Source: a virus
Direction: 5' to 3' (one strand)
IMG/VR virus record: IMGVR_UViG_3300027852_000077
Coordinates: 1 to 42,238 of that record
DNA length: 42,238 nucleotides
Shown: in pieces, positions 16,961 to 20,173 of the stretch
Numbering within the stretch: position 1 is the first letter of the stretch
Layout of the letters: each line of letters begins with the position of its first letter
Position numbers and translations under genes: made by a program
Notes under the pieces: generated by a model
Seen by the model: only the letters and a program-made list of their open reading frames with translations
Databases searched by the model: none
Told to the model about the DNA's origin: nothing

Positions 16961-18357
16961 TGGCTAATAAATCAAAGAAGACAGTGAAGGCGAAGGTTAA
17001 TAAGGCTAAAGAGATAGTAGCAAATTATATGACCTCAGAGCGTACTAGGTTCTCTAACATGCTTGGTTTTAATAGAGAACGCAGCATGACTGAGGTATTA
17101 GGTTATCCTGCGTCAATTGACCCGCAAGCATTTATAGATATGTATCGGCGCGGTGATATTGCAAACCGGATTATACGGGCTTATCCGCAAGCAACATGGA
17201 AAGACCTTCCAGCAATTAAGGATGGCGATGAGACCGACGACGACGAAAAGAGTAATTTTACTACTGCCTGGGAAGAGTTTGTAAAAGCAAAAGACGTTAT
17301 GCATTATATGGAACGTGCAGACCGTCTTAATGGTTTAGGCCAGTTCTCCTTATTGGTTATGGGTTTTCAAGACGGTAAGGAGCTTAGAGAGCCTTTAGAA
17401 AAGCCTGCTAAGGATAGCAAGTACCCATTAATTTACTTAGCCCCTTATGGCGAAGCAAACACAACAATTTCACAGTGGGATAATGACGAGAAGAGCCCCC
17501 GTTTTGGATTGCCTGTTATGTATACCTGCCAACGTGGAAACTACAGTGATAAGAAAAGCCCTACCAAGTCCATAACTGTACACTTTAGCCGCGTAATCCA
17601 TATAGCTGAATTTCTTGACGACGACGAGACTTACGGCCAGCCACGCCTAGAGGCTATCTATAATAGGTTGCTTGATGTGCAAAAGGTAGCTGGTGGAGCA
17701 TCCGAGGCATTCTGGTTAATGGCTAACCGTGGCCTAGCTCTTTCGACGAAAGAAGGGGCAGACCTTACCGACCCAGATAAAAAAGCTATGGAAGCACAAG
17801 CGGAAGAATACCAACACCAATTACGCAGGATACTTACACTGCAAGGCGTAGACGCCCAGGTACTTGGAAGTGATACCCCGCAGCCAGAGGAAACCGGAAA
17901 CTTTATCCTCAAGCTTATTGCAGGCGCGGCCGGTATTCCTATGCGCGTCTTAACTGGAAGCGAGCAAGGCTCATTAGCTAGTGAGCAAGACGAGGCAAAC
18001 TGGGCGGCTCGAATTGATGAGCGTCGCGAGAATTTTGCTGCACCTCGTATGCTGCGCCCATTCGTCGAAAGAATGATATTTACTGGTAACATATCCGAGC
18101 CAGACGGCGACTGGGAGCTAGGCTGGGAGCCTGGTAGCACAATGAGCGAAGATAAGAAAGCAGATGTTGCATTGAAGAAGGCACAAGCTGTATCTCAATA
18201 TCTATTAACTCCTGGCGCAGAGCTTGTTTATAAAATTCCTGAATTTAGGGCAGACCTTAACCTAGATGCTAACGAAGAAATCGAATTAGACGAGTTTAAG
18301 GATTTACCAGAGGGCGAGGAAGATTTACCAAATGGCAAAGACGAAAAAGAAGACTAA
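16960..18357 (+). CDS. Portal protein, DUF1073-like, 465 aa
   Basis: The portal forms the dodecameric DNA gate at one capsid vertex. ERTRFSNMLGF, MTEVLGYP and FIDMYRRGDIANRIIRAYPQ followed by TW and P match the start of the DUF1073 family. AEFLDDDETYGQPRLEAIYN and LMANRG lie in the middle, and the clip/crown region ends in acidic residues. AGGAG favours ATG 16960 over 16954. It stands between TerL and the MuF-like gene, the usual order. Confidence 0.88.
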   Translation: MANKSKKTVKAKVNKAKEIVANYMTSERTRFSNMLGFNRERSMTEVLGYPASIDPQAFIDMYRRGDIANRIIRAYPQATWKDLPAIKDGDETDDDEKSNFTTAWEEFVKAKDVMHYMERADRLNGLGQFSLLVMGFQDGKELREPLEKPAKDSKYPLIYLAPYGEANTTISQWDNDEKSPRFGLPVMYTCQRGNYSDKKSPTKSITVHFSRVIHIAEFLDDDETYGQPRLEAIYNRLLDVQKVAGGASEAFWLMANRGLALSTKEGADLTDPDKKAMEAQAEEYQHQLRRILTLQGVDAQVLGSDTPQPEETGNFILKLIAGAAGIPMRVLTGSEQGSLASEQDEANWAARIDERRENFAAPRMLRPFVERMIFTGNISEPDGDWELGWEPGSTMSEDKKADVALKKAQAVSQYLLTPGAELVYKIPEFRADLNLDANEEIELDEFKDLPEGEEDLPNGKDEKED

Positions 18358-19906
18358 ATGTACTTGCTGCTCAGAGGCTTTAGCTACAAGTAGAAGGGTA
18401 GACCCTACGCAAACCATTACATTGCGCAGAGCTTTCGAGGCACAATTTTATAAGCGCTTCCGTATCCTTAAAGGTCTCATCACTGAGGCTATAGTAAAGC
18501 AGGATGGTTTTGGCCTTAAGAAGAATATTAAATCCAATAGAAAATTTGATTTCCCTAGAAGCTCAGATAAGATTACCGCTTTCATGACATGGATAAAGCA
18601 AATGGAGAGCCAGCACGTCTTAAGTGTTAGTGAAGGGTTATCTTTATCTGCAGCAAGCGAGCAAGCATGGACACGCCTTTATATCGATAGCGCATATAAG
18701 CGGGGTTTGGCTAGTTCTGCTCAAAGAATGCGGGGACAAGGTGTGCAAGTTAGCGACGCTTTCTTAGAAAATGCTTTCTTTAGGCCCATACATGCAGACC
18801 GTATCGGGCTTTTATATACAAGGGCATTTAGCGATTTGAAGGGTATCACCGAGGTAATGGATACCCAGATAAGTAGAGAGATTGCCCAGGGACTTGCTGA
18901 GGGTCGCGGCCCATTCGATATAGCTCGTAGCATAAACAAGCGTATCGATAAGATAGGTATCACCCGCGCGCGTATGCTAGCGCGCACAGAGATAGTAAGG
19001 AGCCATGCAGAGGCTACGCTTAATGCTTATGCTGAGGCCGGCGCAGAGGGTGTAAATTTAGAGGCAGAATTTTTAACGGCAGGAGATGCTAAAGTATGTC
19101 CAGTATGCAGGGCATTAGAAAAACGTAACCCGTACAAACTTAGCCAGGCGCGAGGTCTTATTCCTGCGCACCCTAACGCCGTTTTTGAAGGATCAACTTT
19201 TATTCCTTATGGCGAATGCAAGGAGATCGTTAGGGCTTGGTATAGCGGCCCATCGGTTATACTTTCCTGCGGGGGAGGGAGATACGGGACGACAATCGGA
19301 CCTAATCACCCAATGCTCACCGATAGAGGAATGGTTAAGGCGGCAGAGATTAGAGAAGGTGATAAGATACTCTATGATCTCAGGCACGATAATTTTAGTT
19401 TCTCTAAAGATTTTAATCTCAAAAAGGTTCCAAGATGCGAGGACGTGTTTAAGTCTTTCCTCGGACTTAGCGAAAACGTTTTTATTTCCTCCTCCGCTTC
19501 TGATCTCCACGGCGATAGGAAATTTTGTCAGGGTGAAGTCGAGGCAATAAGGCCCGCACGGAGTTTGTTGCCTAAACTTAATATCAGCATCTTGAAGGAA
19601 TTTAGCAAAAATATCCTCATGAGGTCCGATCCCGATCCCTCTCTTATATCTAGTTTTGCTCCTGGCGATCTTTGTAGCCATGGTGTCTATCTGCCCTCTT
19701 CTTGCAGAATTGGCAGCTCTGACACGGGGATTGTTAGAGATTTTGTGTGGGTTACTGTTCATAATGTAAAACACTCTACTTTTGAAGGTTATGCTTATGA
19801 CTATACTACAGAAAAAGGTTTATATTGCAATAATGGCTTTGTGGTAAAAAATTGCCGCTGTACCTTCTCTCCAATACTAAAAGACCCAAAGAAAGTGCGT
19901 TTATGA
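18332..19906 (+). CDS. MuF-like head morphogenesis protein interrupted by an intein, 524-aa precursor
   Basis: The extein (299 residues after splicing) follows the MuF/gp7 pattern: a helical N-terminal half, RARMLARTEIVRSHAEATLNA, then AKVCPVCRALEKR and the metal-site motif HPNCRC. The intein (residues 283-507) is inserted exactly inside that motif, between HPN and CRC. Such minor head proteins bind the portal and help initiate capsid assembly or are injected. The start has GAGGAAG about 10 nt upstream and overlaps the portal gene by 26 nt. A nuclease-like frame lies antisense inside the intein. Confidence 0.9.
   Translation: MAKTKKKTKCTCCSEALATSRRVDPTQTITLRRAFEAQFYKRFRILKGLITEAIVKQDGFGLKKNIKSNRKFDFPRSSDKITAFMTWIKQMESQHVLSVSEGLSLSAASEQAWTRLYIDSAYKRGLASSAQRMRGQGVQVSDAFLENAFFRPIHADRIGLLYTRAFSDLKGITEVMDTQISREIAQGLAEGRGPFDIARSINKRIDKIGITRARMLARTEIVRSHAEATLNAYAEAGAEGVNLEAEFLTAGDAKVCPVCRALEKRNPYKLSQARGLIPAHPNAVFEGSTFIPYGECKEIVRAWYSGPSVILSCGGGRYGTTIGPNHPMLTDRGMVKAAEIREGDKILYDLRHDNFSFSKDFNLKKVPRCEDVFKSFLGLSENVFISSSASDLHGDRKFCQGEVEAIRPARSLLPKLNISILKEFSKNILMRSDPDPSLISSFAPGDLCSHGVYLPSSCRIGSSDTGIVRDFVWVTVHNVKHSTFEGYAYDYTTEKGLYCNNGFVVKNCRCTFSPILKDPKKVRL
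19178..19852 (+). mobile_element. Intein (Hint domain), 225 residues, N-terminal Ala, with C+1 Cys
   Basis: The left junction is HPN/AVFEGSTFIPYGE and the right junction FVVKN/CRC. Block A is AVFEGSTFIPYGECKEIVRA, block B IGPNHPMLTDRGMVKAAEIREGD, and blocks F/G YAYDYTTEKGLYCNNGFVVKN. The first residue is Ala, so splicing would need direct attack by the C+1 Cys, as in Ala1 (KlbA-type) inteins. The penultimate residue is Lys instead of the usual His, and the block B Thr is replaced by Gly. The roughly 110 residues between B and F show no LAGLIDADG or HNH motif in the sense frame. Confidence 0.85.
19193..19774 (-). CDS. Antisense Vsr/DUF559-like putative homing endonuclease nested inside the intein
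   Basis: The frame lies wholly inside the intein coding sequence on the other strand and stops 15 nt before the intein start. In the 193-residue version, PHEDIFAKFLQDADIKFRQQ (Glu53), CGPYCLDFTL (Asp79), FPIAVEIRSGGGN (Glu90) and EERLKHVLASWNLFEIKIF (Arg107, Trp115) follow the order of Vsr-like/DUF559 nucleases, of which one group (EDxHD) is known as intein homing endonucleases. The usual His after the Glu strand is Asn here. The N-terminus is basic. The start is unsure: GTG 19774, ATG 19762 or ATG 19681, none with a strong ribosome binding site. Antisense and sense codons are in exact register. Confidence 0.75.
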   Translation of the reverse strand: MFYIMNSNPHKISNNPRVRAANSARRGQIDTMATKIARSKTRYKRGIGIGPHEDIFAKFLQDADIKFRQQTPCGPYCLDFTLTKFPIAVEIRSGGGNKNVFAKSEERLKHVLASWNLFEIKIFRETKIIVPEIIEYLITFSNLCRLNHSSIGEHWVIRSDCRPVSPSPAGKYNRWAAIPSPNDLLAFAIRNKS

Positions 19907-20079
19907 GCAGACTAAGTGACCTAAGCCAGCAAGAGCAATTAGCCTGGATAGCAAGTATCGTAAATAGAGAAATGAATAATAAGACACATGGTAGCGTAAC
20001 TATCCGTATGGAGGAAGGGCGCGCAGTACAGGTGAAGTATGAGCGTAGCGAAATGCCTCCTAAAAAACGCGGTGCTTGA
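19903..20079 (+). CDS. DUF2292-like small protein, 58 aa
   Basis: ATG 19903 overlaps the MuF stop (ATGA). After a helix (QQEQLAWIASIVNREMNNK), the HGSVTIRMEEGRAVQVKYER segment matches the short beta hairpin of DUF2292-type proteins (GxVxIxxxxGRVxQV). The stop overlaps a candidate promoter. The function is unknown. Confidence 0.65.
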   Translation: MSRLSDLSQQEQLAWIASIVNREMNNKTHGSVTIRMEEGRAVQVKYERSEMPPKKRGA

Positions 20080-20104
20080 CATTATTTTAAAAAACCATCA
20101 TTAT
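20076..20104 (+). promoter_or_regulatory. Candidate promoter of element A
   Basis: A perfect TTGACA (20076-20081, overlapping the preceding stop codon) is followed after 17 bp by CATTAT. It would start a transcript about 10 nt before the conserved GGTATTGGAATTAACC sequence and its terminator hairpin. Confidence 0.45.
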
Positions 20105-20160: not shown

Positions 20161-20173
20161 ATGAGGTATGACC

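Follow-up and report, generated by a model that had tools for sequence, protein, structure and literature searches.

A minor head protein gene in the viral record IMGVR_UViG_3300027852_000077 is interrupted by what reads as an intein, and on the minus strand of that insert runs a second long open frame. The locus raises the question of whether one stretch of DNA encodes a protein-splicing domain on one strand and a nuclease on the other, with both proteins maintained. Throughout, the window denotes the whole stretch analysed, positions 1 to 42,238 of the record (42,238 nucleotides). The first-pass annotation, made from the letters alone, had proposed a splicing domain and a homing nuclease on opposite strands of the same DNA; profile matches, conservation and codon-position rates support the two-strand arrangement, with homing as the probable role of the nuclease. 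The features are collected in Table 1.

Table 1. Coordinates of the head gene, the intein and the antisense gene in the window
Feature	Position	Strand	Evidence
MuF-like minor head protein gene with intein insert, 524-codon sense ORF	18332..19906	+	Phage_Mu_F E 8e-7, phrog_758 E 1e-40; ORF open throughout
Intein, 225 codons, Ala1 to Asn225, Cys+1; flanks HPN and CRC	19178..19852	+	Pfam Intein_splicing E 0.0025 (residues 322-507); junction pattern as in relatives
Hint N-terminal half with block B	19178..19372	+	Block B opposite antisense C-terminal tail, read on both strands
Hint C-terminal half, blocks F and G	19784..19852	+	Sequence and alignment with relatives
Antisense homing-endonuclease-like gene, 189 aa, ATG 19762 to stop 19193	19193..19762	-	DUF559, NF007294, homologues, AlphaFold2, Foldseek, codon-position test
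Nuclease core: Glu53, Gln70, Gly74, Tyr76, Asp79, Ala88-Val89-Glu90, Arg107 (ORF-193 numbering)	19453..19621	-	Conservation in 45 non-redundant relatives
Sense motif D-[FL]-H-G-D (window D-L-H-G-D)	19502..19516	+	Opposite antisense catalytic strand (I/V)-A-V-E-(I/V); z 6-18 over antisense-synonymous redraws

The intein and the protein encoded opposite it

An intein is accepted on an N-terminal nucleophile (Cys or Ser, or Ala in class 2), the Thr and His of block B, a terminal Asn, and Cys, Ser or Thr at the +1 position. In the window we found Ala1 (codon 19178-19180), the block B sequence TTIGPNHPMLT, a last Asn (codon 19850-19852) and Cys+1, the C-terminal block ending in GYAYDYTTEKGLYCNNGFVVKN directly before that Cys. 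Within block B the T, the P-N-H-P, the T and the G are conserved. The window's Intein_splicing match (E 0.0025) falls under the curated cut-off, while that of the relative L110 (1.6e-11) lies over it; a single-protein viral scan with the sense intein as query returned no match. Profile searches of the window's sense frame found no nuclease family, only Phage_Mu_F and Intein_splicing/Hint similarity, which confirms the earlier statement that this frame has no nuclease motif. A search of the record with Pfam Hom_end_hint was uninformative, as the profile gave no match in the control genomes either.

The relatives fall into two intein subtypes, one beginning with Cys1, which comprises most of them, and one beginning with Ala1, which comprises the window, Rhodococcus phage REQ3 and their relatives. 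The Ala1 inteins of the window (19178-19852) and of L002, L012, L014, L018, L019 and L021 often contain a Cys in the C-terminal block (LYCNNG or LYCSDG) and end in a penultimate residue that is not His. To judge from their sequences, Ala1 inteins possibly follow a class 2-like splicing route or represent a further variant. A split intein was rejected, with the sense frame uninterrupted across the insert in all 250 loci collected and no two half-genes present, and a disrupted gene was likewise considered and rejected.

The 193-codon minus-strand ORF that had been reported at 19193-19774 is present and lies wholly inside 19178-19852. We set aside a start at GTG 19774 because the alignment puts the conserved start at ATG 19762, which is probably the true start and gives a product of 189 aa. 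The anticipated similarity of this product to nuclease profiles was found, though for the window protein alone the E-values are marginal (Pfam DUF559, E 0.005; NCBIfam NF007294, E 5e-4). Among the relatives, REase_MTES_1575 was matched in 29 of 46 and DUF559 in 14 of 46 (best 5e-8), with matches to Vsr as well, and a profile search of the PDB returned 3HRL (E 2.5e-8) and 3R3P (E 0.003). Most relatives additionally carry one or two N-terminal helix-turn-helix (HTH) domains (HTH_23, best 1e-13; also HTH_7, HTH_38 and others), in the order HTH then nuclease; the window copy is without them.

Structure prediction agrees with the profiles. AlphaFold2 modelled the window protein with a pLDDT of 84 and a pTM of 0.76, and the relative L062, which has an HTH-HTH-nuclease layout, with a pLDDT of 89 and two HTH domains. 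For both models the best solved match in Foldseek was the homing-endonuclease domain of I-Bth0305I (3R3P, probability 1.00), at target TM-scores of 0.56 and up to 0.74, and Vsr ranked high as well. Foldseek assigned modest E-values (3.6e-3), but fold and family are concordant. Of the residues singled out by the first-pass annotation, Asp79 (45/45), Glu90 (45/45), Arg107 (43/45) and Glu53 (42/45) held up across 45 non-redundant relatives, while Trp115 turned out not to be strictly conserved; Tyr76 is kept in 44 of the same 45. In terms of the EDxHD pattern, the first Glu, the Asp and the following Glu are conserved, and a His comes next in many relatives (GGxWH, STHP), where the window has GGGN. 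Profiles, models and alignment thus agree on a Vsr-like PD-(D/E)XK fold with conserved acidic residues, and the antisense protein is very probably an I-Bth0305I/Vsr-like nuclease.

Selection and start signals on the two strands

The antisense codons are exactly antiparallel to the sense codons, with sense position 1 opposite antisense position 3, and because of this register antisense stops can arise only from the sense codons TTA, CTA and TCA. The Leu and Ser usage of the phage predicts 9.3 antisense stops over the window's 174 homologous codons, and none is found (P ~1e-5). The 45 non-redundant relatives also contain none, with 1 to 25 expected in most loci (summed log10 P -160). The reverse test gave the same outcome: 233 sense stops are expected given the antisense protein, and there are 0 (log10 P -118). 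Stop avoidance in both directions, combined with the codon-position and residue evidence that follows, indicates that both frames are maintained.

In exact register sense position 1 is the wobble position of the antisense frame, and within a single sense ORF the fastest sense position shifts from position 3 in the extein to position 1 in the overlap. For the pair L005/L031 the changes at sense positions 1, 2 and 3 number 82, 62 and 183 in the extein and 65, 10 and 22 in the overlap; the corresponding figures are 88, 71 and 144 against 26, 3 and 14 for L002/L015, 7, 4 and 86 outside against 58, 13 and 44 within the overlap for the Gordonia phages Vivi2 and Angelicage, and 137, 126 and 187 against 66, 24 and 34 for the window and its nearest relative, L140. 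Antisense identity exceeds sense identity in the overlap only, and antisense D79 and E90 are invariant over the 45 non-redundant loci while the sense residue opposite alternates between V and I and between F and L. Purifying selection acts on the antisense frame in the overlap, and the expectation that this frame and its Glu and Asp residues would be conserved in homologous inteins was borne out in the relatives collected.

Constraint on the sense strand was measured by redrawing the antisense codons synonymously and comparing sense conservation with the resulting expectation. Conservation beyond what the antisense protein needs is found in Hint block B and the stretch following it (window 19243-19369) and, inside the nuclease core, in two further motifs, E/D..F near 19441-19456 and D[FL]HGD at ~19502-19516, the sense [FL]HG being present in 133 of 155 unique cores. 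The D[FL]HGD stretch is constrained on both strands. The rest of the linker is mostly unconstrained on the sense strand apart from staying open, and Hint blocks A/B and F/G are conserved and, outside the overlap, show the substitution pattern of sense coding.

The antisense gene also appears to take its start signals from intein codons. In the Cys1 subtype it begins at the block F His codon (HVY[ND]L), where ATG, GTG or TTG is found in 94 of 106 cases, and upstream lies GGAGGT or GGAGAT, N7 and the ATG, a Shine-Dalgarno sequence at constant spacing; the scored motif lies 12 nt before the start in all 83 relatives in which it was scored. The block F Leu codon that supplies the GAG is CTC in 83 of 95 (24 expected, P 1e-36), and the block F His codon is CAT in 70 of 89 (33 expected, P 2e-15). 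By this codon usage, the ribosome-binding site and start codon of the antisense gene are, in the main subtype, written into the codons of Hint block F. A Shine-Dalgarno sequence is present in the Ala1 relatives L012, L013, L014 and L019; no clear one was found before the ATG at 19762 of the window. The window contains no convincing antisense promoter, its 5 promoter-like sites (2.6 expected) being at chance level. On the plus strand a promoter-like site, TTGACA-17-CATTAT, lies at 20076-20104 in the gap before a gene at 20168.

Spread and mobility of the element

A tblastn search against phages found homologues in Rhodococcus REQ3, Vibrio H2, Pseudomonas, Cronobacter ES2, Gordonia, Klebsiella and Escherichia phages, and in each record fetched the antisense homologue lies opposite an intein-bearing head gene. 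Other family members used as queries returned 121 records each, about half of them from Salmonella phages, and a scan of genome contigs yielded one locus. From scans with full antisense alignments, together with two that used only the nuclease core, we collected 250 loci, among which 155 cores are unique. The antisense gene is in exact register, and the sense frame open across the antisense domain, in 250 of the 250; no free-standing copy of the nuclease occurs among them, the nuclease-core-only scans included. When the sense intein was used for scanning, 80 loci were recovered, every one of which (80/80) has the antisense nuclease. In the Salmonella phage vB_StyS-sam (LC507823.1, 994-1395) part of the antisense gene is annotated as ORF43, a hypothetical protein. 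In one locus, L330, the antisense match contains two stops close to its N-terminal end, which may reflect either an extension of the match upstream or an endonuclease gene in decay.

The genes that host the intein include MuF, Phage_min_cap2, a uracil-DNA glycosylase (L071) and a dCMP deaminase (L135, E 4e-9), as well as a terminase (L073, a weak match) and a DUF2213-like head gene (L056, by sequence only). Since the same antisense-endonuclease intein sits in the genes of L071, L073, L135 and L056, switching between host genes has occurred.

Alleles with and without the intein can be compared directly. The Gordonia phages Vivi2, Fosterous and Angelicage carry a 316-aa intein, and Bibwit lacks it in an extein 98.8% identical to that of Vivi2; the Salmonella phage LSPA1 carries a 272-aa intein, and ER10 lacks it in an extein 93.7% identical. 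The junctions between empty and occupied alleles are seamless, at the exact Asn/Cys boundary. Between LSPA1 and PST-H1 the nucleotide difference is 22% outside the overlap and 1.8% within it, a contrast that carries the signature of horizontal transfer, and the comparison of the window with L140, whose nucleases are 59% identical and whose exteins are 33% identical, points the same way. Empty alleles with 94-99% identical exteins, together with near-identical inteins in genes that diverge by 22%, indicate mobility.

Explanations weighed and comparison with known systems

The antisense gene is real and conserved, and we consider it very likely that the locus combines an intein with an antisense I-Bth0305I/Vsr-like nuclease on the opposite strand, the nuclease most likely spreading the intein by homing. 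The head gene would be translated through the intein on the sense strand, where the Hint halves (A/B and F/G) would assume their fold and carry out splicing of the head protein. The usual place of a sense endonuclease domain would be taken by the reversed nuclease gene, for which reason the complement of that gene must remain stop-free and be read as linker. The nuclease would have a ribosome-binding site and a start codon to itself, both lying in block F codons in the main subtype, and would be translated separately. It would most likely cut intein-less alleles of the head gene, and recombination repair would then copy the intein into the cut allele. Transcription of the antisense strand, cleavage of DNA at the empty site and splicing in the window phage are steps that we infer. 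Homing is the best-supported function, judging from the predicted fold, the DNA-binding domains, the clean empty sites and the signature of horizontal transfer.

Could the antisense frame instead be a mere shadow of a conserved sense linker, its resemblance to DUF559 having arisen by chance? In exact register any motif conserved on the sense strand imposes conservation on the antisense strand too, D[FL]HGD is a sense motif under constraint of its own, and the lone window protein gives marginal profile matches only. However, the pairs L005/L031 and L002/L015 already refute such an origin by the flip in their codon-position rates, and it is at odds also with antisense identity that exceeds sense identity in the overlap alone, with the synonymous avoidance of TTA, CTA and TCA, with the two-domain order of HTH and nuclease and with the conserved ribosome-binding site, so that we find it scarcely credible. 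It is also very improbable that the insert is no working intein and the sense frame incidental to a reversed endonuclease gene in a head gene. Conservation of Hint blocks A/B and F/G, with a sense-coding pattern of substitution outside the overlap, speaks against it, as do a sense frame that stays open in 250 of 250 loci, the exact Asn/Cys junctions, the seamless empty alleles and the Pfam Intein_splicing matches. In its favour, the linker is for the most part free of sense-strand constraint other than openness, and the window intein departs from the usual Cys1 and penultimate His, with Ala1 and Lys in those places, so that splicing of this particular intein is not guaranteed.

A third reading accepts the antisense gene as real and gives it a task other than homing, such as that of a nicking regulator, an anti-defence protein or a superinfection-exclusion protein that travels with the intein; DUF559 and Vsr-type domains do occur in repair and restriction-like proteins too. 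We think this unlikely, given that the top structural match is the catalytic domain of a homing endonuclease, that phage homing endonucleases typically carry HTH modules for DNA binding, that the antisense gene was found only inside inteins (250 loci), and that clean empty alleles exist and the intein has been transferred between genes that differ by 22%.

Intein classes are given in a review as full-length, mini- and split only (PMC7765530), and intein endonucleases are described as intein fusions (PMC3943268). The first-pass annotation knew of no described case like this one, and our searches of an open-access subset of the literature turned up no account of an intein with its endonuclease in antisense, although descriptions outside that subset are possible. 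The passages found in the reports on the coliphage vKMB36 intein (PMC11162368) and on inteins in Salmonella phage head proteins (PMC8425127) mention no antisense gene, and the 'reverse strand' of another paper (PMC8966425) is that of a DNA substrate rather than an antisense gene. Each part is known, and what is new, within the literature searched, is that they use opposite strands of the same codons. With good confidence we propose a fourth intein configuration, in which splicing domain and homing endonuclease occupy opposite strands of the same codons in exact register, the ribosome-binding site and start of the endonuclease lie in block F, the element spreads through phage head, packaging and nucleotide-metabolism genes, and the motifs D[FL]HGD and (I/V)AVE(I/V) are under simultaneous selection on two strands.

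Inteins and their endonucleases have so far been regarded as single-frame fusions. A widespread mobile element with two proteins on opposite strands of one DNA stretch would rank among the strictest gene overlaps, offer hundreds of natural replicates for the study of dual coding and add a new family of HTH-plus-nuclease enzymes. For phage inteins on record as lacking an endonuclease, such as that of coliphage vKMB36, the antisense gene would provide it; antisense genes inside called genes escape annotation pipelines. The arrangement also makes testable the question of why a homing endonuclease should be uncoupled from the expression of late structural genes.

The element shares its Hint blocks, its insertion at conserved protein sites, the placing of the endonuclease between blocks B and F and its mobility with canonical full-length inteins, in which a Hint domain carries an in-frame LAGLIDADG or HNH endonuclease (for example PI-SceI). 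In those inteins the endonuclease is fused in the same frame, whereas here it has the same location on the opposite strand and would be translated separately, unfused. With I-Bth0305I (PDB 3R3P), an EDxHD, Vsr-like enzyme from a group I intron of a Bacillus phage, the antisense proteins share the nuclease fold. Its catalytic core is tethered to DNA-binding modules, as in most relatives. That enzyme, however, belongs to an RNA intron, whereas the antisense nuclease belongs to a translated splicing element that shares its codons, and the identity between them is only 14-19%. Dassa et al. (2009) reportedly described EDxHD-type endonucleases near split inteins in fractured genes, as a separate gene between the gene halves; a Vsr-like homing endonuclease accompanies inteins in both systems, but the present intein is in one piece, and its own codons also encode, on the other strand, the antisense gene. 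Some rDNA group I introns carry antisense homing-endonuclease genes, such as I-DirII of Didymium, in an insert that is non-coding on the sense strand. In both cases the endonuclease runs opposite to the splicing element, but in the intein described here both strands of the same codons would be translated.
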